From the NCBI GenBank assembly GCA_944389025.1, contig CALXKU010000004.1, forward strand, positions 1 to 64,000: DNA of 64,000 bases, read 5' to 3'. Within the stretch, counting starts at the first letter, position 1. Each line of letters starts with the position of its first letter. Origin of the DNA: an uncultured Spirochaetaceae bacterium. Its GTDB lineage: Bacteria; Spirochaetota; Spirochaetia; Sphaerochaetales; Sphaerochaetaceae. The notes beneath the pieces were generated by a model, which was not told the origin of the DNA, made no database searches, and worked only from the letters and a program-made list of their open reading frames with translations. Of the stretch, positions 10,101 through 62,859 are shown piece by piece. The translations under genes and the position numbers were made by a program.

Positions 10101-10367
10101 TTAGAATGAATTGTTCTCCAAATTCAGATCTTCAAGCAAGGCTTCATTCAGACGGTTGATCTCCTCAAGCTCCTCAGGACTACCGTCCCAATCTTTCAGC
10201 TCTTCATCATCAATTTCGTATTCTCCCGTATAAGGGAGTACCACGTACTTAGGGCGGCTATCACGATAAATGACTGCTATGCCATCCTTGTCGACAGCCT
10301 CGAAAACCTTGCGATGGCTGTTCTCAACCTCACTGATATTGAAAATATCCTTTAGTTCCACTTTCAT
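10101..10367 (-). CDS. Small Phd/YefM-antitoxin-like protein
   Basis: An 88-residue acidic protein. Its N-terminal half (NSHRKVFEAVDKDGIAVIY followed by SRPKYVVLP) resembles the DNA-binding half of Phd/YefM antitoxins, and its C-terminal half is glutamate-rich, as in toxin-binding tails. No toxin gene is adjacent: the neighbours are the lyase and an XRE regulator on the same strand. No ribosome binding site is visible. An extended -10 box (TGATATAAT) ends six bases before the ATG, suggesting a leaderless mRNA. It could instead be a free-standing regulator. Confidence 0.6.
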   Translation of the reverse strand: MKVELKDIFNISEVENSHRKVFEAVDKDGIAVIYRDSRPKYVVLPYTGEYEIDDEELKDWDGSPEELEEINRLNEALLEDLNLENNSF

Positions 10368-10373
10368 ACTGAG

Positions 10374-10382
10374 ATTATATCA
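10374..10382 (-). promoter_or_regulatory. Extended -10 promoter, leaderless start
   Basis: On the minus strand TGATATAAT is read through 10382-10374 and ends six bases before the ATG at 10367. There is no convincing -35, but the TGN extension can compensate. The expected first transcribed base is the A of the start codon. Confidence 0.55.
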
Positions 10383-10392
10383 TGCAAGATGA

Positions 10393-10737
10393 CTATCTTG
10401 TGGGTTTTTCCTCTTTTTCCCTATCTCCTATCAGGCTCTCAATTTCCCGCCGTACCGAATCCTCGATGAGATAGGTTATTCTTGATGATATGTTCTTCGC
10501 ATCCGATGCGGAGTCAACAAAGAAAACGGAACACTCAGTATCAAGAACACTGGAAAGCTTGGAGAGTGTATCTGCGGAAGGGAACTTGATACCGTTCTCA
10601 AGAAGGCTTATGTAGTTCTTGGAAAGGGACAGCATCTCCGCCATCTCCTCCTGACTGAGCCCTTTCCTCTGTCTAAGTCTTTTGATATTGAATCCTACAA
10701 GCCTTGCCAGCTCTTCCTTGGTCTTCTGTTTTGTCAT
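10393..10737 (-). CDS. XRE-family helix-turn-helix regulator
   Basis: A 114-residue protein with a Cro/CI-type HTH at about residues 16-70 (NIKRLRQRKGLSQEEMAEML, then SKNYISLLENG). The tail is charged and helical and probably mediates dimer formation. It lies 25 bp upstream of the antitoxin-like gene on the same strand, so the two may be cotranscribed. No ribosome binding site precedes the ATG. An inverted repeat overlaps the -10 box and start codon, which points to self-repression. Confidence 0.88.
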   Translation of the reverse strand: MTKQKTKEELARLVGFNIKRLRQRKGLSQEEMAEMLSLSKNYISLLENGIKFPSADTLSKLSSVLDTECSVFFVDSASDAKNISSRITYLIEDSVRREIESLIGDREKEEKPTR

Positions 10738-10772
10738 ACTAAAAGTATGATTTCATATAAGCAAGAAACCAA
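10735..10772 (-). promoter_or_regulatory. XRE gene promoter with operator over the start codon
   Basis: On the minus strand -35 TTGGTT (10772-10767), a 17-base spacer and -10 CATACT (10749-10744) lead to the ATG at 10737 six bases later. The 15-bp inverted repeat CATACT-TTT-AGTATG at 10735-10749 covers both the -10 box and the start codon, as expected for an autoregulatory operator. Confidence 0.55.
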
Positions 10773-21355: not shown

Positions 21356-21395
21356 CTCCATCCTATCTCACATTGCAGTGAGCCTGAGGATGGAG
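21356..21395 (-). ncRNA. Right-end hairpin, likely part of the TnpB omega-RNA scaffold
   Basis: CTCCATCCT (21356-21364) pairs perfectly with AGGATGGAG (21387-21395), and inside it CTCAC (21367-21371) pairs with GTGAG (21378-21382) around a six-base loop. The structure overlaps the tnpB stop codon at 21363-21365. In studied TnpB systems the guide RNA scaffold overlaps the 3' end of tnpB and the guide is the flanking host DNA. That role here is inferred. Confidence 0.6.
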
Positions 21396-22622
21396 CTTCT
21401 TCTCACTCAAGACACCTGATGGTGTCAGTATCAGTGAGCTTTCACCACTGGCCCAGCGGCATAGGATGTCTTTTCCCTCATCCAGCAGGTTTTTTGTTGC
21501 GTTCCTGTCCCTGTCATGGTGCGTACCGCAATTGCCGCACGTCCATTCCCGGTCTGAAAGCTTCAGGTCGTGATTTATCTCATGGCAAGAAGAACACCTT
21601 TTTGATGAGGGAAAGAACTTATCTATTTTCACAAGCACCTTCCCCTGTTCATTCAGCTTGTAGAGAAGCATGTTCCTTAGCCTTCCATATCCGTTGTCGT
21701 ATACAGCTTTCCCAAAGTTCAGAGCCTGTGACATGTGCTGGAGATTGATGTCCTCCACTACGACGGCATCAAAGGAATCGGAGACTTTCCGGGATAGCTT
21801 ATGCAGGAAGTCATTCCTCCTGTTTGCTGCTTTCTCGTGTAGCTTCCCGATCCTGTGTTTCTGCTGCCAGTAGTTGGCAGAGCCGTACTTCATCCTTGAG
21901 AGCTTCCTATGCTCCTTCGCTATCCTCTCTTCGAGATTGCGGTACCAGCGGATGTCATCCTTCGCGATGTCGTTCTCCCCGGAGGCGGAGACGACAAGGG
22001 ATGGCATCGAGTAGTCAAAGGCTTCAATCCTGTCGAACTTCCTTATTGTCTCCTTTTGTCTTATCTCCACATCGAAGGTGAGAGAGATGAAGAACTTCCC
22101 GCTTGCCGTCTCCTTGACCGTCGCATGCTTCAACTTCCACTCATCCGGTATGCTACGGTGGAGTATGATGCGCACTCTTCCGAGTTTCGGAAGCTTGATA
22201 TAGTTCTCCTTTTCTCGTATATGGATCATCTCGATGTTGTTGTTTATCCTGTTGGTTGTATATGACCTTTTATCCTTTCCCTTCGCCCTGAACTTCGGAG
22301 CCTTCCCTTCAGGAAAGAGAAGCTTGCATGACCTGTCAAGATTCAGCTGTGTGTTGCAGAGAGCCAGGGAGTCAACCTCGCAAAGGAAGGAATTCTCCTT
22401 CTTCAGATGGGCGGGAGTGGTATTGAGAAGCTTTCCTCTGTTCTTCTTCTCATAGCTGATGCGCTCATCAAGCAGATGGTTCCAGACGAAGCGGCAGCAG
22501 CCGAATGTCTTCCAGATGAGAATCTTCTGCTCCATAGTAGGGTTTATCCTGAACTCCATGCACTTGGAGACGGTAACTTTATCATTTCTTCTCTCCGGCT
22601 TTTTTGCAACTAATTCGGTCAT
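21363..22622 (-). CDS. tnpB: RNA-guided endonuclease TnpB (IS200/IS605 family)
   Basis: A 419-residue TnpB. The N-terminal OrfB_IS605 domain includes KTFGCCRFVWNHLL. RuvC motif I is present as AFDYSMPSLVVSA, with its aspartate but without the usual glycines; motif II is VVVEDINLQHM and motif III DRDRNATKNL. A four-cysteine zinc ribbon (CSSCHE...CGNCG) lies between II and III. The DED set is complete, so nuclease activity is likely. No ribosome binding site precedes the ATG. TGTTATACT ends six bases before it, which suggests leaderless expression. Confidence 0.92.
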   Translation of the reverse strand: MTELVAKKPERRNDKVTVSKCMEFRINPTMEQKILIWKTFGCCRFVWNHLLDERISYEKKNRGKLLNTTPAHLKKENSFLCEVDSLALCNTQLNLDRSCKLLFPEGKAPKFRAKGKDKRSYTTNRINNNIEMIHIREKENYIKLPKLGRVRIILHRSIPDEWKLKHATVKETASGKFFISLTFDVEIRQKETIRKFDRIEAFDYSMPSLVVSASGENDIAKDDIRWYRNLEERIAKEHRKLSRMKYGSANYWQQKHRIGKLHEKAANRRNDFLHKLSRKVSDSFDAVVVEDINLQHMSQALNFGKAVYDNGYGRLRNMLLYKLNEQGKVLVKIDKFFPSSKRCSSCHEINHDLKLSDREWTCGNCGTHHDRDRNATKNLLDEGKDILCRWASGESSLILTPSGVLSEKKLHPQAHCNVR

Positions 22623-22628
22623 GGTATG

Positions 22629-22637
22629 AGTATAACA
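22629..22637 (-). promoter_or_regulatory. Extended -10 promoter of tnpB, leaderless start
   Basis: On the minus strand TGTTATACT spans 22637-22629 and ends six bases before the tnpB ATG at 22622. A 16-bp perfect palindrome (ATAATACTAGTATTAT) lies upstream at 22687-22702 and may be an operator or part of the element left end. Confidence 0.5.
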
Positions 22638-40392: not shown

Positions 40393-40553
40393 TATTACGG
40401 ATTTTTAAATCTTATATTTTGTTTATATAAAATAAATTAATTTAAATAAAAACCAGAAAATGAAAATATTACTGAAAATATTCTAAGTAAATTATGCAAA
40501 TTAATGTAAAATTTTCCTTTATAAAATTGCCATTTTCATCCCATAATAAAATC

Positions 40554-41537
40554 ATGGCAGTCAATCCAACTCTAAAAGAAATATCAGCAATGACAGATGT
40601 CTCCATCGCCACGGTCTCACGGGCTCTGTCCAAGCCTGATAAGGTAAAATTCGCAACCAGGAAGAAGATTGAAGCCGCCATAGAGGAGTACCAGAGGGAG
40701 AAGAAGAAGGAGTCTTCCAACCTCGTAGGCTTCATCGTCCCCGATCTTGAGAACCAGTTTTTTCCTCTGATGCTCAGCGGGGCGGACAATGCCGCAGCAC
40801 TAAGCGGAGCGAATATCATCACACTGTGCTCAGGAAACGATCCGAAGAAAGAGGATAACATTATCAAGAAACTGATCGACATGCATGTTGATGGTGTGAT
40901 AATGAGCACATCAGGAAAAGCCTCGCCACTGCTTCATCAGATTATAAAAGACAACATCATCCCGATCATATTCCTGGACAGGGACCCTGAGATTGACAAC
41001 ATAGACCTCATAACCACGGATAACTATGATGGCATGTATCAGAGCACGAAATACCTTCTCACCCTTGGGCACAGGGACATACTCTACCTAGGAGGAAGGG
41101 AAGGAACAAGTACGAACAAAGCAAGAGAGGAAGGATTCTGCAAAGCAATCGGAGAATATAACGGGATCTCGATATCGATGAGATATGGAGAATACGATTT
41201 CATGACCAGCTACAACATCTTTAAAGAGATGATAAAGAGCGGACACCTGCCTTTCACGGCTATCGCATCTGCAAATGATATCATGGCCCTCGGAGCGATA
41301 AAAGCATTTGAAGAAAACGGGATACGAATTCCTGAGGACATCTCAATAATAGGCTATGATGACATTCCAAGCGCGGAGTACTCATCCCTTACGACCGTGA
41401 AACAGCCGTTCAGGGAGATGGGAAGAATGGCATTCTATCAGCTTTCATCGATCATACAGAACCAGTTCCGTCCGAAAAAGAAACTCATACTCAATTCGAC
41501 AATAATATTCCGCTCATCATGCGCGGTAAGAAAATGA
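40554..41537 (+). CDS. LacI-family transcriptional regulator
   Basis: A 327-residue repressor. The N-terminal HTH is TLKEISAMTDVSIATVSRALSKPDKV at residues 5-30, followed by a hinge region and a periplasmic-binding-protein-like sensor domain (LVGFIVPDLENQFFPLMLSG, DGVIMSTSG, IIGYDDIPSAEYSSLTTVKQP). It diverges from the riboside/sugar transporter operon and probably controls it, with the sugar or riboside as effector. The ATG at 40554 fits the usual HTH start. No ribosome binding site is visible there, and a CATAAT box lies six bases upstream. Confidence 0.92.
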   Translation: MAVNPTLKEISAMTDVSIATVSRALSKPDKVKFATRKKIEAAIEEYQREKKKESSNLVGFIVPDLENQFFPLMLSGADNAAALSGANIITLCSGNDPKKEDNIIKKLIDMHVDGVIMSTSGKASPLLHQIIKDNIIPIIFLDRDPEIDNIDLITTDNYDGMYQSTKYLLTLGHRDILYLGGREGTSTNKAREEGFCKAIGEYNGISISMRYGEYDFMTSYNIFKEMIKSGHLPFTAIASANDIMALGAIKAFEENGIRIPEDISIIGYDDIPSAEYSSLTTVKQPFREMGRMAFYQLSSIIQNQFRPKKKLILNSTIIFRSSCAVRK

Positions 41538-42396: not shown

Positions 42397-42425
42397 TTGA
42401 CTAATGCCCGATTTGTTCGGATATT
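42397..42425 (+). promoter_or_regulatory. Candidate promoter, leaderless start of the zinc-ribbon gene
   Basis: -35 TTGACT (42397-42402), a 17-base spacer and -10 GATATT (42420-42425) precede the ATG at 42432 by six bases. No ribosome binding site is seen. Confidence 0.45.
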
Positions 42426-42431
42426 TAGAAT

Positions 42432-42773
42432 ATGTTTAATGGAAGAACCGGATTTGATGCGCTCTCTTTCACGACGCTGATTTTATCTATAGTATTTGCA
42501 ACCCTTTCAAGCGTGATAAGGGAACGGTATCTCGCACTGCTTCCCGCCCTTGTGGCGATCGCACTGATAGCATACACATGCTTCAGAATATTCAGTACGA
42601 ATATCGGGAAAAGAAGGTATGAGGCCGATAAATTCGCCTCCATTTTCCGAAAAGATCCGTATAAGAGATTCAAGTGCCCGAAATGCGCCACAGTCTGCCG
42701 TGTCCCGAAACACAAAGGCAAGATAAAGATACATTGCCCATCCTGCGGCAATGAGTTCATAAAAAGGACATAG
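42432..42773 (+). CDS. Small membrane protein with C-terminal zinc ribbon
   Basis: A 113-residue protein with two hydrophobic segments (about residues 11-25 and 33-52) and a cytoplasmic tail with two CxxC pairs (FKCPKCATVCRVP and IHCPSCGNEF), a likely zinc ribbon. It is followed three bases later by the DUF5685 gene, which in turn overlaps a DnaJ-domain gene. The three form one unit. Function is unknown; a membrane-bound adaptor is a guess. Confidence 0.82.
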   Translation: MFNGRTGFDALSFTTLILSIVFATLSSVIRERYLALLPALVAIALIAYTCFRIFSTNIGKRRYEADKFASIFRKDPYKRFKCPKCATVCRVPKHKGKIKIHCPSCGNEFIKRT

Positions 42774-44870: not shown

Positions 44871-45684
44871 CGTATGCACCACCACTGAGCGCGTAAAATA
44901 TGGCATTCTTTATGCCATCGTTCTCGACATCTGTCGTCACATAGTCCGCTACTTCCAGCAGATCGCTGCTGGAATTCCCCATGGCTATGCCAAGAGATGC
45001 ATACTCTACCATCTCTATGTCGTTAGATCCATCTCCGATTGCGACCGAGTCCTCTCTGGATGCACCATAATAAGAGAGCACTTTCTCTATTCCGGTAGCC
45101 TTGCTGACAGAGCTCATCACGATCTCCACCATGAGACGGGGAGGAAGGGAGACGGTATTGTTCACGACAGTGAATTCTGATCCTATCTCAGCTCTCACCC
45201 TATCCGTACCATAACCGTCCTCCGCACAGAGAATGAGGAGCTTCTTGATTTCCTCATCCTCAGGCACGTCCTCTGATAGAACAAGGCCATTAAGCTCTAC
45301 AAGACGGCCTATGTACTTCATTAACTGGCTCTTGAAGAACTCACCTGCCTCACGGCTTAAATACGTAGCGTTATCCGTCTGAGTCAGAACGTAGAATCCC
45401 CTATCCTTCAGGTATCTGAAAAGCTTATTGAACTTCTTTCTCTCTATATGCGCACTGTATATCCTCTTGCCATCAATCTCTATCGTCGCCCCCGCAGAGC
45501 ATATGTATCCATCGAACGCGATATTCTCGAATGCAGGCAACTCGGCAAGGGAGCGACCAGAGGCGATAAAACATTTAGATCCGAGGGCCTGCGCTGCCTT
45601 TATTGCATATACCGCGCTCTCGGGAACGCTCTTTCCGAAAGGAAGGAGTGTTCCATCCACATCGAAGAAAAAGTACTTAGACAC
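44845..45684 (-). CDS. HAD-superfamily (Cof-type) phosphatase
   Basis: A 279-residue HAD hydrolase with nucleophile motif FDVDGTLL (D8 and D10), motif II SGRS, a Cof-type cap and C-terminal motifs GDGSNDIEMVEYA and AMGNSS. Cof-type enzymes dephosphorylate sugar phosphates or cofactors; the substrate is unknown. The start is a GTG at 45684 that overlaps the ilvA stop (TAGTG), so it is coupled to threonine dehydratase translation. Confidence 0.9.
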   Translation of the reverse strand: MSKYFFFDVDGTLLPFGKSVPESAVYAIKAAQALGSKCFIASGRSLAELPAFENIAFDGYICSAGATIEIDGKRIYSAHIERKKFNKLFRYLKDRGFYVLTQTDNATYLSREAGEFFKSQLMKYIGRLVELNGLVLSEDVPEDEEIKKLLILCAEDGYGTDRVRAEIGSEFTVVNNTVSLPPRLMVEIVMSSVSKATGIEKVLSYYGASREDSVAIGDGSNDIEMVEYASLGIAMGNSSSDLLEVADYVTTDVENDGIKNAIFYALSGGAYDGRNKKEG

Positions 45685-46889
45685 TACGCAAGCTCCGCTA
45701 TGATATCATATCCGGCATTCTTAACCGCTTCTTTTATCTCTGAAACATGATGATGATCCCTAGTCTCGATCGTAAGACGGAGGGTACAGGAATTGAGATC
45801 CGTTCCGCTCCCGGCTTTCTCATGGAAAACACCGACCACATTTGCACCATGGCGGGCTACGATTGATGAAATCTCGGCAAGCTGTCCCGGCTTATCCTGG
45901 AGGGCGATTGTGAAATCAGCATAACGTCCCTCTCTTAAAAGAGCCCTGTTAATAACCCTGGAAAGAATTGTGACGTCTATATTCCCTCCGGATACAAGAC
46001 ATACGGTCTTCTTTCCTTTTATATCCACCTTATTGAACATGGCGGCGGCTACAGCGACAGCACCCGCACCTTCGGCGACAAGCTTCTGCTTCTCCATCAG
46101 ATCAAGAATCGCACATGCAACCTCATCGTCGGTAACGGTAACTACCTTATCCACATACTTCTCGACATAGCTGTATGTCAGCTCCCCCGGGCATTTCACC
46201 GCAATACCATCAGATACTGTTGATACGCTCTTGAGGGCTTCGATGTGATGGTGCTCAAGGGCATTCACCATGCTTGGAGCCCCTGCTGCCTGGACGCCAT
46301 AAACCTTCACCTCAGGTCGTAGCATCTTAAGCACATACGCAACTCCGGCAATAAGGCCTCCACCTCCCACCGGGACAATTACCACATCAACATCCGGAAG
46401 CTGGTTTAGAATTTCCAGTCCAAGAGTTCCCTGCCCGGCAATCACATCCTCATCATCGAAGGGATGGATCATTGTCTTTCCCGTCTCTTCGCAGATCTCA
46501 TGAGCCCGTACATAGGCATCATCATAGACCCCTTTTACAAGTTCAACGGTCGCCCCCAGACTCCTTGTGGCCTCGACCTTTGATATAGGCGCCCCTTCCG
46601 GAATGCAGATCACAGCCTCAATTCCCTGCCTTGATGCGGCAAGCGCAACCCCCTGGGCATGATTGCCGGCACTGCATGCGACAACCCCCTTCTTTTTCTG
46701 ATCTTCGGTCAGACGGCTCATCTTATAATAAGCTCCACGAAGCTTGAATGAGCCTGTCACCTGAAGGTTCTCCGTCTTAAGATAGACCTCGCTTTCAGGG
46801 AACATCTTCGGTGCCCTGATGAGGTCGGTACAGCGCGCCACCTGTCTTAATGTGAACGCGGCCTGGTATACAGTATCAAGTGTAAGCAT
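45684..46889 (-). CDS. ilvA: Threonine ammonia-lyase with C-terminal ACT domain
   Basis: A 401-residue PLP enzyme that converts threonine to 2-oxobutanoate and ammonia. The PLP lysine is K49 in GSFKLRGA; SAGNHAQG binds the substrate carboxylate and VPVGGGGLIAG the phosphate. Residues from about 325 form one ACT domain (DFTIALQDKPGQLAEISS), as in the short biosynthetic or TdcB-like forms. No ribosome binding site precedes the ATG. A promoter ends six bases upstream, so the mRNA is probably leaderless. It heads the unit with the HAD and TetR genes. Confidence 0.92.
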   Translation of the reverse strand: MLTLDTVYQAAFTLRQVARCTDLIRAPKMFPESEVYLKTENLQVTGSFKLRGAYYKMSRLTEDQKKKGVVACSAGNHAQGVALAASRQGIEAVICIPEGAPISKVEATRSLGATVELVKGVYDDAYVRAHEICEETGKTMIHPFDDEDVIAGQGTLGLEILNQLPDVDVVIVPVGGGGLIAGVAYVLKMLRPEVKVYGVQAAGAPSMVNALEHHHIEALKSVSTVSDGIAVKCPGELTYSYVEKYVDKVVTVTDDEVACAILDLMEKQKLVAEGAGAVAVAAAMFNKVDIKGKKTVCLVSGGNIDVTILSRVINRALLREGRYADFTIALQDKPGQLAEISSIVARHGANVVGVFHEKAGSGTDLNSCTLRLTIETRDHHHVSEIKEAVKNAGYDIIAELA

Positions 46890-46895
46890 AGGAAA

Positions 46896-46924
46896 ATCAT
46901 ACTCCCAAGAATTAAGATAATCAA
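46896..46924 (-). promoter_or_regulatory. ilvA promoter, leaderless start
   Basis: On the minus strand -35 TTGATT (46924-46919), a 17-base spacer and -10 TATGAT (46901-46896) are followed six bases later by the ilvA ATG. The predicted first base is the A of the start codon. Confidence 0.6.
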
Positions 46925-53109: not shown

Positions 53110-53861
53110 AAACAGGTTTCGGCATCGATGAAAAAGCTCTCGATACCCAGCTCCTTCTCCGTATAGCGCATCATCGCCTTGACACCAAAGACTTCGCTCC
53201 TGTAATGCCCACCGGCGATCATGTTCATATTGCTCTCTTTAACGAGATGGAAATCCGAATGCTCCACCTCCCCCGTGATAAAGCAGTCGATACCATCAGC
53301 TATCGCATCAGATACATCATGGGAAGCCCCGCCGCTTATGATAGCCACGCTCTCTATCATGTCTTTTCCAAAGCAGACGGTCCTAAGCCCGTGGTCCTCA
53401 TCAAATCCCAGAATCCTTGATATCTCGGCAGCAGTCATCGGGAAAGGAAGCTTACCCTTGTACCCTACACTCTTTCCACGGAATGTTCCGAACGGATCAT
53501 AACTTGTCATTCCAAGACGTAAAGCCATCTGGGCATTGTTTCCATAAAGGGGATGGGCATCCAGTGGAATATGGCATGCAAAGAGGCCCATGTCGCTCAT
53601 TATCGCCTTTTTCACCCTATGATAATGCATCCCGCTGATTGCTATCGGAGAGCTCCAGAAAAGCCCGTGATGCACGAAAAGAAGATCCGCCTTCTCATCT
53701 GCGGCTATAGCAATCGAATCCATTGAGGCATCCACCGCAAATGCGATCTTCTTAATCTCCTTATCACTCATCGCAATCTGAAGACCGTTAAGGGATATAT
53801 CATCAAAAGATCCAATGTCTAAAAGATCATAATAATGTCTTACCAGTTCATCTCTTGTCAT
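53106..53861 (-). CDS. Nif3-like dinuclear metal centre protein (YbgI/YqfO type)
   Basis: A 251-residue Nif3 family protein with the metal motif FVHHGLFW near residue 61, NGLQI near 25 and CHIPLDAHP near 95, plus the late GEVEHSDFHLVKES. Nif3 proteins form ring-shaped hexamers with two metals per subunit; their reaction is unclear, although some are annotated as GTP cyclohydrolase 1 type 2. No ribosome binding site precedes the ATG. A consensus TATAAT ends eight bases upstream, so leaderless expression is likely. It heads the lspA unit. Confidence 0.92.
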   Translation of the reverse strand: MTRDELVRHYYDLLDIGSFDDISLNGLQIAMSDKEIKKIAFAVDASMDSIAIAADEKADLLFVHHGLFWSSPIAISGMHYHRVKKAIMSDMGLFACHIPLDAHPLYGNNAQMALRLGMTSYDPFGTFRGKSVGYKGKLPFPMTAAEISRILGFDEDHGLRTVCFGKDMIESVAIISGGASHDVSDAIADGIDCFITGEVEHSDFHLVKESNMNMIAGGHYRSEVFGVKAMMRYTEKELGIESFFIDAETCL

Positions 53862-53869
53862 AGCTAAAG

Positions 53870-53909
53870 ATTATATAGCGTTGACAGATAATAATCCACA
53901 ACTTACATT
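53870..53909. promoter_or_regulatory. Divergent leaderless promoters of nif3 and the Lon-like gene
   Basis: Rightward: -35 TTGACA (53881-53886), 17-base spacer, -10 TACATT (53904-53909) and ATG at 53917 after seven bases. Leftward: TATAAT (53875-53870) with the nif3 ATG at 53861 after eight bases. Neither gene has a ribosome binding site. The two promoters share 55 bp, so they may compete for polymerase. Confidence 0.65.
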
Positions 53910-53916
53910 ATTTGTC

Positions 53917-55806
53917 ATGGTCATAGAAATAACTGAAAAGGATCTTGCCCTCGAATATGAGGATATGGATTATGAGAACATAGATGCACCCGATACGATC
54001 ATAGGACAGGAGAGGGCTCTTGAAGCCCTGCGTCTTGGTTTCATGATTGACCGCCCAGGGTATAACATATACGTATCAGGGGATGAATCCACAGCCAGGA
54101 TGAGCGCCGTAAGGCGGGAGATTGAGAAAATAGAGGGGGATACCGAGAATCTTTTTGATGCCGCATACGCGTTCAATGCAAATAACCCGCGCTGTCCGCT
54201 CTGCCTTATTTTCCCCATGGGAAAAGCTGAAGAATTCCAGAAAGGACTGGATCGCCTTAAAGATGGTCAGATCTCAAAAGAAGAGCTTAAAAAGGCATTT
54301 TCCTATCAGAAAGTAATGCATTTCATCGATTCCTTGCCGCCAAGAGAGGAAAAAGAGAGTGCTTACCGTATAAACATAGTACTCAACAGAAAGGATGCGA
54401 AAAGGAGGCCGCTCGTAATTGAATCCCATCCATCACACGACGCACTTTTCGGTTTTGCGGAAAAGGATGAGAAAGAGGCGCATCTGGCATACAATGCGGG
54501 AAGCTACCAGATGGCAGCCGGTGGATTCCTAGTCCTCAATGCAGAGGAGGTGCTTGCGGAGAAAGGGCTCTGGACAACACTCAAACGCTACCTGAACATG
54601 AGCGAGGAAGCAATGACATCATCTGCCGTCCAAGGCGAGCTCATAGGTTCAATCAGGCCGTATCCGATAGCGCGAAGGACGAAAGTCATACTGATTGGAA
54701 GTGATGAGACCTATGATGAGCTTGCAGAGAAGGATGCGCAATTTCTGAGACTCTTCAAGATATGTCCTGAGTTCGATTACCAGATGGACAGGAATGAGGA
54801 TAACATCATCGGTACTGTCGCATACCTTAAAAGGAACGGGAGAGGCCTTCTGCCCCTCTCAAATTCCGCATACCAGGAGATACTGCGCTACTCATCATGG
54901 TTCAGTGAGAACAGAAAGATGCTCACAACACAGCTCTCGATACTTGGAGACCTCGAAAAGGAGGCGGATATCGCAGCTAGGCTCAGAGGTAAGGAGGAGA
55001 TTGACGGAGAGGCTGTGAAAATGGCGATTACAAAACGAGGAGAGCTTGCAGGCCTTACCGAGGACAGGATAAACAGGGAAATCAGGGATGGTGAGATTCT
55101 TATCACCCTTGAAGGAAAGCTTGTCGGCACACTTAACGGACTTGCCGTGATAGACAGGGGCCTCGCATCGTTTGGTACACCTACCGTAATCAGCGCCACG
55201 GCAGCCCCGGGAAACGAGGGAATCATAAACATAGAACATGAGGCGGGACTGTCGGGAGGAATCCATGACAAGGGACTGCTCATCCTTGAGGGCTATCTGA
55301 GACACCGCTATGCGAGAAACTTCCCACTCAGCCTATATGCCGGAATCTGCTTTGAGCAGAGTTACGGAGAAGTCGATGGGGATTCTGCAAGCTCCGCAGA
55401 GCTTTTCGCTCTTCTCTCCGCAATAGGAGAAATCCCCGTACGCCAGGATATCGCGGTAACAGGATCCGTGAATCAGATGGGCAAACTGCAACCGGTTGGT
55501 GCCATAAATGAGAAAATAGAGGGCTTCTACAACGCATGCAAGACATCAGGACTCACAGGCAGGCAGGGGGTTATCATTCCGATGCAGAATATTCAGAGCC
55601 TAATTCTCCCCTATGAGATAGAAGATGCGATAGCAAGGGGGATGTTCCACATCTATGCTATATCCACGATAGATGAGGGAATGGAGCTTCTAACAGATAG
55701 AAAGGCTGGAGAGCGCGGGACAAAGGGGCTCTTCCCGATAGGAACCGTGAACAGGGCAGTTGAAGACGGGCTTAAACGTCTCTACTCCTCCTCGCAGAAG
55801 AATTAG
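53917..55806 (+). CDS. Lon-like (S16) protease with degenerate P-loop
   Basis: A 629-residue protein of the AAA_32 plus Lon_C type. IIGQERALEALRLGF near residue 28 and GYNIYVSG precede the P-loop position, but residues 55-63 read GDESTARMS, without the GxGK/R-T of a working Walker A. GGFLVLNAEEVL stands where Walker B is found. The protease domain has catalytic S490 (GDSAS) and K533 (INEKIEGF), 43 residues apart as in E. coli Lon. It may be a protease with weak or no ATPase activity. The ATG at 53917 is set by the promoter seven bases upstream; an in-frame extension to 53881 would overlap the -35 box. Confidence 0.88.
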   Translation: MVIEITEKDLALEYEDMDYENIDAPDTIIGQERALEALRLGFMIDRPGYNIYVSGDESTARMSAVRREIEKIEGDTENLFDAAYAFNANNPRCPLCLIFPMGKAEEFQKGLDRLKDGQISKEELKKAFSYQKVMHFIDSLPPREEKESAYRINIVLNRKDAKRRPLVIESHPSHDALFGFAEKDEKEAHLAYNAGSYQMAAGGFLVLNAEEVLAEKGLWTTLKRYLNMSEEAMTSSAVQGELIGSIRPYPIARRTKVILIGSDETYDELAEKDAQFLRLFKICPEFDYQMDRNEDNIIGTVAYLKRNGRGLLPLSNSAYQEILRYSSWFSENRKMLTTQLSILGDLEKEADIAARLRGKEEIDGEAVKMAITKRGELAGLTEDRINREIRDGEILITLEGKLVGTLNGLAVIDRGLASFGTPTVISATAAPGNEGIINIEHEAGLSGGIHDKGLLILEGYLRHRYARNFPLSLYAGICFEQSYGEVDGDSASSAELFALLSAIGEIPVRQDIAVTGSVNQMGKLQPVGAINEKIEGFYNACKTSGLTGRQGVIIPMQNIQSLILPYEIEDAIARGMFHIYAISTIDEGMELLTDRKAGERGTKGLFPIGTVNRAVEDGLKRLYSSSQKN

Positions 55807-57223: not shown

Positions 57224-57278
57224 AAGGTGAAAAAAGCCCACAAAATTGGTAAAAATAACCACCAACGAAGGTGAAAAA
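57224..57278. repeat. Direct repeat upstream of the sigma-54 promoter
   Basis: AAGGTGAAAAA occurs at 57224-57234 and 57268-57278, 44 bp apart (about four helical turns), 38 to 92 bp before the sigma-54 element of pspA. A partial inverted repeat TTGGT...ACCACCAA lies between them. These may be the upstream sites of the PspF-type activator. Confidence 0.4.
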
Positions 57279-57315: not shown

Positions 57316-57331
57316 TGGCATGGCATTTGCA
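57316..57331 (+). promoter_or_regulatory. Sigma-54 promoter of pspA
   Basis: TGGCATGGCATTTGCA has GG at 57317-57318 and GC at 57329-57330 with exactly ten bases between, the -24/-12 signature. The expected start near 57342 leaves a leader with GAGGAGAG before the pspA ATG at 57374. A PspF-type activator is encoded just downstream. Confidence 0.85.
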
Positions 57332-57373: not shown

Positions 57374-58042
57374 ATGAACACATTCCGGAGAATTTCAGAC
57401 ATAGTCTCATCAAATGTCAATTCCGTACTAGACAGGATGGAAGATCCCGAAAAGATGATAGATCTTTCTATAAGGGAGCTTGAGGATGCGATTCTAAGAC
57501 TGAAATCGGACCTCAGGCTGAAGAAAAACGAAACAGAAGTGAATAATAACATTATCATCAGCATGAAAGACTCAATAGCACGATGGGACGAGAGAGCACT
57601 CCTTGCCGCAGAAAAAGGAGAAGATGAAATGGCAAGGGAGGCACTCAGGGAAAAAAGAGCTCTGAAAGAAAGATTAAAGAGTGCTGAGGAATCAAGACTG
57701 ATCCTCGAGCAGAGCGCGAAAGCGGGAGAAGAGAGCATAAGGGAAGCGGAGCAAAAACTTAAGGAGATGAGTGCTACATCAGCATCTCTTAAGGCACGGG
57801 CGAAAATAGCAAAAGACCGCATTGCCCTAAGCAAGGCCGGTTGCGAGAAAAAGAATTTAGACTCAGTAAGACGAGCAGAGGAAATCAGAGCCAGGATTGA
57901 ACGCTGGGAAAGCATTGCGGATGCTAACAGCTTGGAAGGAGAGTCCAAGACAGGAATGAATTTTGAAGAAATGGAGAGGGAAGATGATATAGAGAAAGAG
58001 CTGAAAAAGCTTAAAGAATCTATTACGGCTCTAGAGAAATAA
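57374..58042 (+). CDS. pspA: Phage shock protein A (PspA/IM30 family)
   Basis: A 222-residue, almost wholly helical protein. RISDIVSSNVNSVLDRMEDPEKMIDLSIRE at residues 5-34 is the PspA N-terminal signature that binds stressed inner membrane. Long coiled coils rich in arginine, lysine and glutamate follow to the end. It would oligomerise on damaged membrane and, in enterobacteria, restrains PspF. AGAGGAGAG precedes the ATG at 57374; an upstream in-frame ATG at 57320 would lie within the promoter. No pspB or pspC is adjacent. Confidence 0.93.
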   Translation: MNTFRRISDIVSSNVNSVLDRMEDPEKMIDLSIRELEDAILRLKSDLRLKKNETEVNNNIIISMKDSIARWDERALLAAEKGEDEMAREALREKRALKERLKSAEESRLILEQSAKAGEESIREAEQKLKEMSATSASLKARAKIAKDRIALSKAGCEKKNLDSVRRAEEIRARIERWESIADANSLEGESKTGMNFEEMEREDDIEKELKKLKESITALEK

Positions 58043-58291: not shown

Positions 58292-59299
58292 TTATTTCAA
58301 TCTGTTTTTATACTTTCTATACAGTCCTCTGAATTGATCATATGTCAGTCCAAGGCTCGAAGCCGCTATTCTCTGATTTCCCCCCGAGGCATCCAGAGCT
58401 CTTGAAATATATGAGATATCTAAGTCTTCATGGGCTTTTGAAAAATCTTTCAACTCATATTTGAATTCTTGAGGAAGATTGTTTTCCTCTCTGTTATCAT
58501 TGTCTACAAAGGTATCACCAAATAGATTTCTGAATGGATTGAAATCCACGGTTTCTATCAAATTGCCATCAGCTCGATAGACTGCACGTTCCACAACATT
58601 CTTAAGCTCCCTGACATTGCCTGGCCAGCTATAGCTTTCAAGTTTTCTTACAACCTCATCGCTGAAGGCGGGCTTCTCATCCCTCCCACACTCGAACGCC
58701 ATTTTTGATGCGAAGAAATCAGCAAGAAGCATGACATCCCCTTCCCTTTTCCTCAGCGGAGGAAGGAACAGGACCTCAAACGAGAGACGGTCGAGCAGAT
58801 CCTCCTTGAACAGCCCTTTCCTGCAAAGTTCAGGAAGGTCCGCATTCGTTGCTCCCACTATACGCACATCGCTTTCATGCGTTAGAGATGAGCCAACCCT
58901 CTCGTATGTTCCATATTCAACAACACGCAGAATCTTCTCCTGGACTTCAAGGGGGATGAGTCCAATCTCATCCAAGAACAGCGTTCCACCTTCAGCCTCC
59001 TCGAACCTTCCCTTTCTGGTTTGAACAGCACCCGTGAACGCACCCTTCTCATATCCGAAAAGTTCGCTCTCAATAAGGGATTGTGGAAGAGCTGCACAGT
59101 TTACTGCTATAAGGGGACCTTGCCATCGCTCCGAAAGAAAATGTATTCTCCTAGCACTTATCTCCTTACCTGTTCCCCGCTCTCCAACGATAAGCACAGG
59201 ACGCTCTATGCGTGCGACACGGCTAAGCTTGCTCTGGAAATCAAGATAAGCCTCCGACTCTCCAATACCAGTACTTGAGTTATCAAAAGCGTTATTCAT
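58292..59299 (-). CDS. pspF: PspF-type sigma-54 enhancer-binding activator
   Basis: A 335-residue activator lacking an N-terminal receiver domain, as in PspF. Walker A GERGTGKE is at residues 39-46, the sigma-54 contact loop GAFTGA at 86-91 and Walker B TLFLDE at 106-111. PVLIVGERGTGKE, SERWQGP and the WPGNVRELKNVVERAVYR region are close to E. coli PspF as I recall it. A Fis-type HTH forms the C-terminus (GGNQRIAASSLGLTYDQFRGL). It faces pspA convergently across a 249-bp gap. No ribosome binding site is seen; TATAAT ends eight bases before the ATG. Confidence 0.93.
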   Translation of the reverse strand: MNNAFDNSSTGIGESEAYLDFQSKLSRVARIERPVLIVGERGTGKEISARRIHFLSERWQGPLIAVNCAALPQSLIESELFGYEKGAFTGAVQTRKGRFEEAEGGTLFLDEIGLIPLEVQEKILRVVEYGTYERVGSSLTHESDVRIVGATNADLPELCRKGLFKEDLLDRLSFEVLFLPPLRKREGDVMLLADFFASKMAFECGRDEKPAFSDEVVRKLESYSWPGNVRELKNVVERAVYRADGNLIETVDFNPFRNLFGDTFVDNDNREENNLPQEFKYELKDFSKAHEDLDISYISRALDASGGNQRIAASSLGLTYDQFRGLYRKYKNRLK

Positions 59300-59307
59300 G
59301 GCAAAAT

Positions 59308-59336
59308 ATTATACGATTGTCGAGCGATATTGTAGA
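59308..59336 (-). promoter_or_regulatory. pspF promoter, leaderless start
   Basis: On the minus strand -35 TCTACA (59336-59331), a 17-base spacer and -10 TATAAT (59313-59308) precede the ATG at 59299 by eight bases. The activator gene thus has a sigma-70-like promoter, separate from the sigma-54 promoter it would serve. Confidence 0.55.
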
Positions 59337-59430
59337 CTGCTTTCTACTTATGCTTAACTTTCTTCCTGATTATGAAATATAGGTTAAATTAGGTCAAGGG
59401 AGGATATATTAGAATCGTACAAAAAAGAAT

Positions 59431-59463
59431 GCAACCTGTTTGCAATCTGTTTGCATATGCAAT
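59431..59463. repeat. 11-bp direct repeats between pspF and the prophage
   Basis: GCAACCTGTTT, GCAATCTGTTT and a partial GCATATGCAAT follow head to tail from 59431, one helical turn apart. They lie in the 229-bp gap upstream of pspF and downstream of the terminase gene. Their role is unknown. The palindrome CTCCGGAG lies nearby. Confidence 0.45.
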
Positions 59464-59528
59464 TGATGTGAAAAGTGTTAACAGCCGATATTGTATGAAA
59501 AATAGAGGCCACTCCGGAGCCGAAACAT

Positions 59529-61427
59529 TTATATTTTTACACCCTTTGAAATCTGTCCATATATTATACGCCTCTGATGAGACACTTCAGCATGGGTTGC
59601 CCTTCTTCTATCTTCCAGTTCGTCCCAGATGCTATCACCCCATGTATCGAAACGGCGTATGAAATAAACGGCATAATTGTACACACGGCAATCAAGAGCC
59701 TCGTTCCTGTCTCTGAGCTTATCCCATTTCAGAACTTTCTTCTTCTTGTCATATATAAGCTCTTCCGCCGTAAGCTGCTGGTAATACTCCTCCGTAAGAT
59801 TCCTCGCAAAGAAAGGGATGAACTGCCGTGTCCCCTCCTCGTTATCCTCTCTTATGAGGTCCTTGTAGACTAAGCTCTTTATCCTGTCTACCGGGGTATC
59901 ATAGTAGGCTATTCCGTTCCTCTCGATTCTGGAAGGGAGCAACGTGTCATCCTTATGTTTGTTGTTACCTCTTATGAGCATGAACCCGTCGTTTGCAAGC
60001 TGAAGGTACAATGCATCAAGGGTTTGAGTATTGTACGACCTGTCGCAAGCGTTACCCGCGGACGGTATGAGTTCGCCATCCGCCCTCTCCCATTTTCCGT
60101 TAAGTATAATCTCTTCGTACATTTTCCAACATGAGGCTTTGGGATCGCTTGTATCCTCCCCCTGTCCGCAAGCGAATACGATATGATCGAGCACTATGTT
60201 CCTGTTTCTCTTCCCCCACCCCATGACTGTAGTTTCCAGCCTGTTTTTCTGGACGTCCGTGCCTGTTGTTATTACGGAGACCCAAGATGGAATATTGTCT
60301 CCAATCGCATACTCCGAATTGAGAGCTTGTTTGTAGAGTATCTCCCAGTCCGGTGTCTCCTGCGCATTCTTATACTGCCTGACAAGCACCGTATTATAAA
60401 AAGCTGTGAGTTTGGCGCTCTTTTCCAGCTCATCCACCGTATTGGCCGCCTCAAGAAGTTCCTGTGCTATCGACTTCCAGCTGTACCAGCCAAGAGGAAC
60501 ATAAAAAGACGGAAGTATATAGCCTTCCCTGCCAGCTGGGGCATTGTTGTTTGTCGCTATCCATTTTGCCCCATTTCTGGCTTTGAGAAAAAACGCCTTA
60601 TCCGCCTCCTCTATTCTGTTATGGCACTTGGTGCATTCAAACCATGCATCTGTAACAGCTTTTTTTGTTTCATTCGTATCATACTTGAAATTTTCCAGAT
60701 CAAGCGTTATGAGCTCTCCACAATGGGGGCATGGCACGAAGTATTTCTTTGCAGAGGAATTCTGCACAAGATCCATTATGTGAGAGTGAGTGTTTTTCGG
60801 AGTGCTGGAAACGATGAATTTCCGTGAATGTTCAAATGTGTTTCCCCTCTTTCTGAGCTGTGTTATAGGGCTTCCCTCACCCTCGACATCGACGGGGTAG
60901 GCATCACACTCATCCGCTATGATGACTGCGGATGAATATCCCCTGAGGGCGTTTGCTGTGCTGACGGCCACGAACCTAATGTTTCCTCCCGGGAACTGCT
61001 TTTCATTAAGCGTGTCTCCCGACCCTCTCTGTCCTTTTCCAAGAAGATTCTGAATTGACGGGTTTGAAGCTAGGAATGGGTTGAACTTGTGCTTAACAAA
61101 GAGTTTTAATTCTTTCTCATCGGAGAATGCGAAAGCCTGAGGTCTGGGGTATGCCTTGATATAATACGTCATGATTATCTGCTCTGTCAGCGTCTTACCA
61201 CACTGGGAGCCGAACATGAGATAAATCTCTTTTGTCGGACTGAATGGTGAAGCGCCGTCAAGGATTTCCTGTTGATATGGGGCTCTCTCGGGATTGTACG
61301 ATCCCGGCTCCGCAGTATCACTTGGGAGTAGTATGTTTTTTCTTGCCCATACCGAGATGTCCTGTCTTTGTGGAGGCCTCAGCAAGTCCGCAACAACATT
61401 TATCACATAACTGCTAAGCTTAGCCAT
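59529..61427 (-). CDS. Phage terminase large subunit (GpA family)
   Basis: A 632-residue DNA-packaging motor of the lambda GpA type. The adenine-binding and P-loop region is EIYLMFGSQCGKT (Walker A-like FGSQCGKT near residues 72-79), Walker B VIIADECDAY near 169, and a four-cysteine zinc finger CPHCG...CTKCH lies around 230-275. The nuclease domain begins VITTGTDVQKNRLETTVMGWG near 380. It cuts and translocates phage DNA into proheads. AAGGATG precedes the ATG. It follows the small-subunit candidate by six bases and is the last prophage gene next to pspF. Confidence 0.94.
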   Translation of the reverse strand: MAKLSSYVINVVADLLRPPQRQDISVWARKNILLPSDTAEPGSYNPERAPYQQEILDGASPFSPTKEIYLMFGSQCGKTLTEQIIMTYYIKAYPRPQAFAFSDEKELKLFVKHKFNPFLASNPSIQNLLGKGQRGSGDTLNEKQFPGGNIRFVAVSTANALRGYSSAVIIADECDAYPVDVEGEGSPITQLRKRGNTFEHSRKFIVSSTPKNTHSHIMDLVQNSSAKKYFVPCPHCGELITLDLENFKYDTNETKKAVTDAWFECTKCHNRIEEADKAFFLKARNGAKWIATNNNAPAGREGYILPSFYVPLGWYSWKSIAQELLEAANTVDELEKSAKLTAFYNTVLVRQYKNAQETPDWEILYKQALNSEYAIGDNIPSWVSVITTGTDVQKNRLETTVMGWGKRNRNIVLDHIVFACGQGEDTSDPKASCWKMYEEIILNGKWERADGELIPSAGNACDRSYNTQTLDALYLQLANDGFMLIRGNNKHKDDTLLPSRIERNGIAYYDTPVDRIKSLVYKDLIREDNEEGTRQFIPFFARNLTEEYYQQLTAEELIYDKKKKVLKWDKLRDRNEALDCRVYNYAVYFIRRFDTWGDSIWDELEDRRRATHAEVSHQRRIIYGQISKGVKI

Positions 61428-61433
61428 ATATAA

Positions 61434-62270
61434 TCATCCTTCCTCCTCTTCTCCCAATGTGGACCTTACAGCCATCTCTAAGGTATGGATGACACTTGTA
61501 ACCTCATCTCTCAGTTCCTCTTTTAAGCTGGATATTTTTTGTCCATCTATTTTGATTCCTCCAAGCCTTTCCACGTATGATGCAACACGCACAACGAACT
61601 TGTCGGGTATGGTTGAGAGAGTGTTTACAAGTGGTGTGACAATCTCACGGAGCGTATAGTCCACATCCTCTTTTAAAACAAGCTTCTCCGCCTCTTTTAG
61701 ATACTGTTGCCGATAAATCATGAGTTTCATTTTCTTCGTGGCAACATCCATATCTATGAGATGCTCTCCCGTTGTCTTGTTAAGAGCCCAACTATCCGTC
61801 TCGTCATCCCAGATCCAGCAGTCAGAAAAGGTATTACTGTTAAAGGAAAGCTCGGACGAATCTCTCATCTGCTCGAGTACGACTTCATCAATCTCTCTCG
61901 CCTTCTCTTTCCCGACTTTTTCTTTTCTTATCTTCGGTGCATCTCCTATGAAATCAATATCTGGTGGTGTTGTCGATATGTCCTTTGAATTTTGTCGGGG
62001 TATCGACTCGTATCCTCCCCTCTCAGCTTCTCTTCTGGTTCTCTGCCTTCCATTGGATTTACTTTTCTTCAGGTGATCCTTATACCATGGCCCCCATTTT
62101 TCGACGTCAATGTAATTCGCACCATCGATTGAGGCCATGGCTATTTTCCCTGATTTGGTCATGTAATTGATCGCCTGCCACGACACTCCCATCTGACGTG
62201 CGAACTCGTTCTTGCTCACATAGAGGATGCCATTGCGTTTAAGCCTCTCTTTTTTTCTTTTTGTAGCCAT
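61434..62270 (-). CDS. Probable phage terminase small subunit
   Basis: A 278-residue protein. The N-terminus is very basic, then ILYVSKNEFARQMGVSWQAINYMTKSGKI forms a MerR/Nu1-like DNA-binding fold near residues 15-45. The middle is charged and the C-terminal half helical, as in Nu1-type small subunits that bind the large subunit. The assignment rests on position just before the GpA-type gene and on the HTH; sequence identity to known small subunits was not tested. The ATG at 62270 follows GAGGATATT. It overlaps the 80-residue gene by 32 bases. Confidence 0.75.
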   Translation of the reverse strand: MATKRKKERLKRNGILYVSKNEFARQMGVSWQAINYMTKSGKIAMASIDGANYIDVEKWGPWYKDHLKKSKSNGRQRTRREAERGGYESIPRQNSKDISTTPPDIDFIGDAPKIRKEKVGKEKAREIDEVVLEQMRDSSELSFNSNTFSDCWIWDDETDSWALNKTTGEHLIDMDVATKKMKLMIYRQQYLKEAEKLVLKEDVDYTLREIVTPLVNTLSTIPDKFVVRVASYVERLGGIKIDGQKISSLKEELRDEVTSVIHTLEMAVRSTLGEEEEG

Positions 62271-62481
62271 AATCAATATCCTCTTTCTCTATGTCATATA
62301 CGCAGTCGGGAGTAGATAGTGTCAGGATATCGCAATCAAGTCCTATGAGTGCGGAATTTGAAATCCGGCATCCGCATTCCCTTAAATATCTGTATGTGGC
62401 GCGAATTGAAGCGAAATGAAGAACCTTGGTTTCCGTTCCTTTTGTTATAGAAACCATCATCGGGGTGCCGGTCGTTCTCAT
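62239..62481 (-). CDS. Small phage protein, possible DNA-binding
   Basis: An 80-residue protein. VLHFASIRATYRYLRECGCRI followed by SNSALIGL recalls the helix-turn-helix of NUMOD1-type modules (F-S-I-x-x-A pattern), but I cannot assign it firmly. The ATG at 62481 follows a strong AAGGAGG, better than an in-frame start 54 bases upstream. It is the first gene of the leftward phage unit, upstream of both terminase genes, and could regulate that unit. Confidence 0.65.
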   Translation of the reverse strand: MRTTGTPMMVSITKGTETKVLHFASIRATYRYLRECGCRISNSALIGLDCDILTLSTPDCVYDIEKEDIDYGYKKKKREA

Positions 62482-62524
62482 GCGAACCTCCTTGTGTTGA
62501 CCCTGAAAATTACCGCATTTTGTG

Positions 62525-62560
62525 TTCCGTTTCAATCCGTTTTGCTCCGTTCTGTTCCAA
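62525..62560. repeat. 10-bp iterons between the divergent phage units
   Basis: TTCCGTTTCA, ATCCGTTTTG, CTCCGTTCTG and a partial TTCCAA follow one another from 62525 with an exact 10-bp period, placing TCCGTT on one face of the helix. They lie in the 111-bp gap between leftward terminase and rightward head genes, just upstream of the rightward -10 box. A regulator or terminase-type binding site is plausible. Confidence 0.6.
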
Positions 62561-62576
62561 CATGGGATTATAAATT

Positions 62577-62585
62577 TGGTATAAT
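62577..62585 (+). promoter_or_regulatory. Extended -10 promoter of the gpW-like gene
   Basis: TGGTATAAT at 62577-62585 is an extended -10 box that ends seven bases before the ATG at 62593. No ribosome binding site exists in between, so the transcript is probably leaderless. Confidence 0.6.
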
Positions 62586-62592
62586 TTAAAAT

Positions 62593-62859
62593 ATGGCAAG
62601 AAATAAGGAAAAAATAAAAAAGCTCATTGAAACTAAAAAAGAGGTGCTTTCAAAGTACGAAGATGCCCGGCTTGCCATACTCGCTACAGGACAGAGCTAT
62701 CAGATAAAAAACGGGGACAATACAAGAGTCCTTACTTATGCGGATCTTGATTCGATAACGAGACTCATAGATCAGACCGAAGCGGAGATAGAAGTTCTTG
62801 AAGATAAGCTTGAGGGTTGTACCGGACGCTCTATCATTATTGGAGGGGCATGGCGATGA
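62593..62859 (+). CDS. gpW-like phage head-tail joining protein
   Basis: An 88-residue, mainly helical protein. EDARLAILATGQSYQIKNGDNTRVLTYADLDSI near residue 23 fits the gpW/DUF6148 pattern, in which a short beta hairpin separates two helices. Such proteins plug the portal and join head to tail. The position directly before the portal gene, with ATGA overlap, matches lambda-like phages, where W precedes B. It has no ribosome binding site. Confidence 0.82.
   Translation: MARNKEKIKKLIETKKEVLSKYEDARLAILATGQSYQIKNGDNTRVLTYADLDSITRLIDQTEAEIEVLEDKLEGCTGRSIIIGGAWR

Follow-up and report, generated by a model that had tools for sequence, protein, structure and literature searches.

A nif3-family gene and a gene for a LonC-type AAA+ protease (lonC) stand back to back in the genome of an uncultured relative of chicken-gut Ornithospirochaeta, and the 55 bp between them raise the question of where their transcripts begin and how these are translated. 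The initial annotation had read a TATAAT box before nif3 and a TTGACA-17-TACATT promoter before the Lon-like gene, each without a Shine-Dalgarno (SD) sequence, and had proposed that such leaderless starts are widespread and coexist with SD-led ones. We have examined the window, by which we mean the whole stretch of 64,000 nucleotides analysed, which lies on contig 4 of a genome of 2.31 Mb in 39 contigs and in which no Rfam elements or tRNAs were found. The features discussed are collected in Table 1.

Table 1. Positions in the window of the nif3/lonC promoter pair and of the -10 boxes of other genes; starts and promoters are putative.
Feature	Position	Strand	Remarks
nif3-family gene, 251 aa	53106-53861	-	leaderless start 53861; alignment with homologues begins at residue 1 in many loci of Spirochaetota
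nif3 -10 box TATAAT, 8 nt from ATG	53870-53875	-	strict; checked base by base; conserved in relatives
nif3 weak -35 box TGGATT	53893-53898	-	17 bp from nif3 -10; inside lonC promoter
lonC -35 box TTGACA (TGTCAA on nif3 strand)	53881-53886	+	17 bp to -10
lonC -10 box TACATT, 7 nt from ATG	53904-53909	+	position conserved in relatives
LonC-type AAA+ protease gene, 629 aa	53917-55806	+	leaderless start 53917
55-bp intergenic region	53862-53916		two divergent promoters, interleaved and leaderless; 28 bp between -10 boxes
TATAAT with TGn extension, 6 nt from the ATG of 10101-10367	10374-10379	-	strict
CATACT, 6 nt before ATG of 10393-10737 (HTH_3)	10744-10749	-	weak candidate; 4/6, without first T; -35 3/6
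TATACT with TGn extension, 6 nt from the ATG of tnpB 21363-22622	22629-22634	-	strict
CATAAT, 6 nt before ATG of lacI-type 40554-41537	40542-40547	+	borderline; unlisted earlier; sequence check
GATATT, 6 nt before ATG of 42432-42773	42420-42425	+	weak candidate; -10 4/6
TATGAT, 6 nt from the ATG of the ilvA-type gene 45684-46889	46896-46901	-	strict
TATAAT, 8 nt before ATG of pspF 58292-59299	59308-59313	-	strict
TATAAT with TGn extension, 7 nt from the ATG of gpW-like 62593-62859	62580-62585	+	strict

Base by base, both promoters are as the initial annotation described them, and there is no SD sequence at the nif3 or the lonC start. The lonC -10 box conforms only to TANNNT (4/6 of TATAAT) and is paired with a perfect -35 box, and the weak -35 box of nif3 sits in a GTGGA block that is conserved across the family. 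The predicted starts of the two transcripts are ~53 bp apart, and no phage record matches the 59-bp promoter region. The nearest named relatives of the genome are Candidatus Ornithospirochaeta and uncultured Spirochaetales (86% and 79% identity in nif3), and judging by the named relatives among the hits it presumably belongs to the Sphaerochaetaceae (Spirochaetota). The lonC product joins a LonB/LonC AAA+ module to a Lon S16 protease domain (Pfam AAA_32, LonB_AAA-LID and Lon_C, with LonC_helical below the cut-off at 22.3 against 24 bits), and its best solved relative is the TTC1975 peptidase (4fwd, E 7.5e-75).

Comparison with related loci shows that this arrangement is kept. In all 21 distinct family intergenic regions shorter than 60 bp a -10-like box lies 5-9 nt from both starts, and in 20 of these an SD sequence is found on neither side. 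The criterion here was a loose one, TANNNT with a match of 3/6 or better to TATAAT, and the strength of the comparison therefore lies in joint conservation and in no single box. Across the 21 regions the distance between the -10 boxes is constant at ~28 bp and the distances to the ATGs vary, with the lonC -35 box present in all but one. The -10 boxes of nif3, lonC and also pspF are kept in place across genera, and many nif3 genes of Treponema and of more distant loci have an SD sequence instead. The nif3/lonC region is the clearest case here of what appears to be a conserved back-to-back leaderless pair, and this shared double promoter is the most specific part of our result.

For the genome as a whole, forty 20-kb stretches were added to the window, giving an 864-kb sample of the one genome in which 764 genes were called with a home-made dicodon model, their starts being picked without any upstream motif. 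A strict box, defined as TAxxxT with a match of at least 5/6 to TATAAT at 5-8 nt from the ATG, precedes 46 of 354 operon-first genes, and 200 dinucleotide shuffles give 10.5 +/- 2.9 with a maximum of 19 (z = 12). The scan against shuffled upstream regions that the initial annotation had suggested as a check does therefore yield the sharp peak it looked for, and leaving the window out gives the same outcome (41/324, where flanking bins average 13.3). Counted by distance, -10 hexamers of operon-first genes are most frequent at a spacer of 6 (20 strict boxes) or 7 (17), most other spacers having ~3-4 each; the same count shows no peak at these spacers in operon-internal genes, where strict boxes number 4/278 against a shuffle mean of 2.6. 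An SD motif is present in 2/46 strict-box genes and in 132/308 other first genes, and in the wider set, with a strict box 5-9 nt from the start (n = 53), in 2/53 against 132/301 (p = 9e-10). These box and SD counts support in silico the coexistence of two modes of initiation, leaderless and SD-led.

The signal is real above chance, and the word "widespread" has to be given a quantity. Relative to flanking bins, strict boxes are in excess by 8.8% of first genes (95% interval 5.1-12.5) and TANNNT boxes by 11.8% (7.1-16.5), so that leaderless-type genes, a sequence-based class within which leaders of 0 and of a few nucleotides (0-3 nt) are taken together, make up ~9-12% of operon-first genes or ~4-6% of all genes. 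About half of the first genes carry neither a -10 box at the start nor an SD signal.

The leaderless-type genes are weakly codon-adapted, with a median CAI of 0.579 against 0.605 for SD-led first genes (p = 1e-4); the top tenth of CAI values holds 1/52 of them and 31/163 of the SD-led genes. The excess of regulators, mobile, phage and stress genes proposed in the initial annotation finds no support when ~51 leaderless-type and 39 SD-led first genes are named by Pfam, regulators for instance numbering 4/51 and 3/39 (p = 1). DNA-repair genes (UDG, Pol IV-type IMS, Vsr, AlkD-type and UvrA-like) number 5/51 against 0/39 (p = 0.07), a bias that is a hint only. Two adjoining leaderless-type genes (L106:944-4196), both of 537 codons and with near-identical upstream boxes, are a probable tandem duplicate, and the one scanned is AAA-ATPase_like/PDDEXK_9.

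The leaderless-type genes are also concentrated at divergent gene pairs, which bears on a first alternative, namely that leaderlessness is a by-product of compact divergent intergenic regions and has no role of its own in expression. Of first genes whose upstream neighbour is divergent, 70/222 have a leaderless-type start, and of those whose neighbour lies on the same strand, 11/132; where the divergent gap measures 45-75 bp the figure is 21/34, and where it is at least 150 bp it is 15/100 (p = 5e-7). Both genes look leaderless in 7 of the 11 divergent pairs that have a gap of 45-60 bp. However, some genes with a same-strand neighbour are leaderless-type too, the nif3 -10 box stays 6-8 nt from the start at three related loci where no lonC was found adjoining (L006, L008 and L011), and at a fourth (L010), where lonC is far off, it lies at 9 nt. 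We regard the by-product explanation as a serious one that somewhat less than half persuades us, and it is compatible with sigma-70 promoters at start codons as the source of leaderless mRNA. Two further compact divergent pairs of leaderless type (L085:12380-13322 and L118:16096-18491), with gaps of 58 and 47 bp, include a Vsr endonuclease and a Crp-type regulator. The idea that all divergent leaderless pairs share one spacing was considered and rejected, as other pairs have 21-103 bp between their -10 boxes and the consistent ~28 bp is found only at nif3/lonC.

A second alternative accepts the -10 boxes as genuine and places the error in the annotated ATGs, translation beginning further downstream after an ordinary SD leader; a coding-score gene finder does pick starts imperfectly, and the large share of first genes with neither signal could be taken in the same sense. 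Yet 0/52 leaderless candidates have, in the 40 codons that follow, an in-frame start with an SD sequence before it, against 21/165 SD-led genes (p = 0.005) and 35/230 in another gene class, and misplaced starts are therefore unlikely. In addition, the start codons of nif3 homologues coincide, the proteins being aligned from residue 1, and only ATG is used (53/53 genes of the wider set, all 46 strict ones included, against 269/301 other first genes), so that we consider this explanation very improbable. Least credible of all, and hardly to be entertained, is that the peak reflects no promoters but an artefact of composition or an A+T-rich bias of the S1-type, non-SD mode of ribosome binding: the upstream regions are A+T-rich and biases of this kind have been reported for non-SD genes (PMC5397173), but the peak is limited to one or two spacings, is missing in operon-internal genes and stands 12 sd over dinucleotide shuffles, and it comes with -35 enrichment (a match of at least 4/6 at 16-18 bp in 22/53 wider-set genes against 3-8 at control spacings) and with TGn extensions in 19/52 leaderless-type boxes against 21/133 other -10 boxes.

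The nine genes of the window for which leaderless starts had been listed fare unevenly: six have strict boxes (10101-10367, tnpB, ilvA, nif3, pspF and the gpW-like gene) and lonC qualifies through its perfect -35 box, but those of 10393-10737 and 42432-42773 are weak. The product of 10101-10367 is Phd/YefM-like, below the Pfam cut-off, and the -10 box of the ilvA-type gene is kept in some relatives, another having an SD sequence. In most family loci the pspF box lies 6-10 nt from the start. Gene 62593-62859 has no Pfam match, and its phage gpW-like name is that of the initial annotation. As to 42432-42773, TTGACT (-35, 5/6) lies 17 bp upstream of GATATT, and the product has no Pfam match. The CPxCG motif at the end of this small gene resembles a zinc ribbon, and a DUF5685 gene follows after 3 nt; an overlapping minus-strand ORF, preferred by the gene finder, competes with it.

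Near pspF some further observations were made. A palindrome, TGGTAAAAATAACCA (57247-57261), is followed at ~55 bp by a sigma-54-like element, TGGCATGGCATTTGC (57316-57330), before pspA, and TGGTnAnnnTnACCA-like sites occur upstream of leaderless-type pspF in relatives (for example L277, L278, L284 and L032). The TGGTAAAAATAACCA/TGGTnAnnnTnACCA-type palindrome is a candidate PspF binding site, although the single match in the window, taken alone, is within chance. The start of pspA (57374-58042) is probably at 57374, ATGAAC after AGAGGAG, in preference to 57320 or 57437 as given by the ORF list and the gene finder. Directly upstream of pspF, 59300-62859 holds a phage terminase large subunit gene and small genes, and the pspF promoter of the window lacks the palindrome found in relatives, possibly because the phage genes have replaced it.

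The same script was run on other genomes. E. coli has no peak (strict boxes 0/114), and D. radiodurans plasmid MP1 has one (TANNNT 5-8 nt from the start, 11/76). A genome of the same genus (G052) gives a stronger peak (21/119), and of two others of the family one (G049) has a peak at 14/152 and one (G022) has none at 4/167; Treponema putidum has a modest peak (16/164), with an SD sequence in 0/16 of those genes.

Sigma-70 promoters placed at the start codon, giving leaderless mRNA in a minority of genes beside SD-led genes, are therefore very probably what these data reflect. A sigma-70-type RNA polymerase would use the -10 box, and its natural start point 6-8 nt downstream would fall on the start codon or within ~2 bases of it; the mRNA would therefore begin with AUG, have no SD sequence and presumably be translated as a leaderless mRNA. 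The remaining genes, nearly all operon-internal ones included, would have ordinary leaders or AGGAGG sites. Two promoters of the leaderless kind would stand back to back at nif3/lonC, and as each -35 box lies ~5 bp from the other's -10 box, one polymerase should exclude the other. What the analysis shows is the signal in the sequence, together with its statistical support and its conservation; we infer this mutual exclusion, the actual 5' ends and leaderless translation alike.

Leaderless genes in spirochaetes are already known, and the present case is a well supported addition. Zheng et al. (2011) described TA-led genes in 207 bacterial genomes, including 6 of the 18 from Spirochaetes (1.8-6.9% of genes, 3.9% on average), and noted a TATAAT-like pattern in medium-GC genomes (PMC3160421). 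Like those genes, which have a TANNNT/TATAAT-like box ~12 nt before the start and are operon-proximal only, the genes described here show a -10 box at 5-9 nt above chance, no SD sequence, restriction to operon-proximal positions and an AUG start. The main text of that study names no spirochaete species, the present candidate genus is outside its coverage, and neither the concentration at divergent pairs nor the conservation of a given leaderless promoter pair is treated there. In Leptospira interrogans a dRNA-seq map of 2017 lists ~440 primary start sites at distances of 0-10 nt from start codons (PMC5243855), so that leaderless and leadered genes share one spirochaete there as well; that evidence is experimental and from a distant order, and no nif3/lonC pair is seen in the part of the map drawn on here. 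Our literature search found no paper joining "leaderless" with Sphaerochaeta. In E. coli bidirectional promoters, too, two polymerase orientations compete for one short stretch, but divergent starts lie 10-23 bp apart around a shared -10 box (PMC12825309), whereas nif3/lonC has two separate -10 boxes and both its transcripts look leaderless.

These results add a genome with a quantified mixture of leaderless and SD-led initiation for a poorly studied spirochaete family, and gene finders that expect SD sequences will misplace starts in this one. It is a tentative and rather doubtful suggestion that in the Sphaerochaetaceae leaderless initiation is tied to compact divergent promoters, with nif3/lonC, its 28 bp kept across genera, as the archetype and as an either-or switch between protease and nif3. 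The nif3/lonC double promoter is kept across a family with cultured members, so that one short fragment would allow both leaderless translation and competition between back-to-back promoters to be tested.
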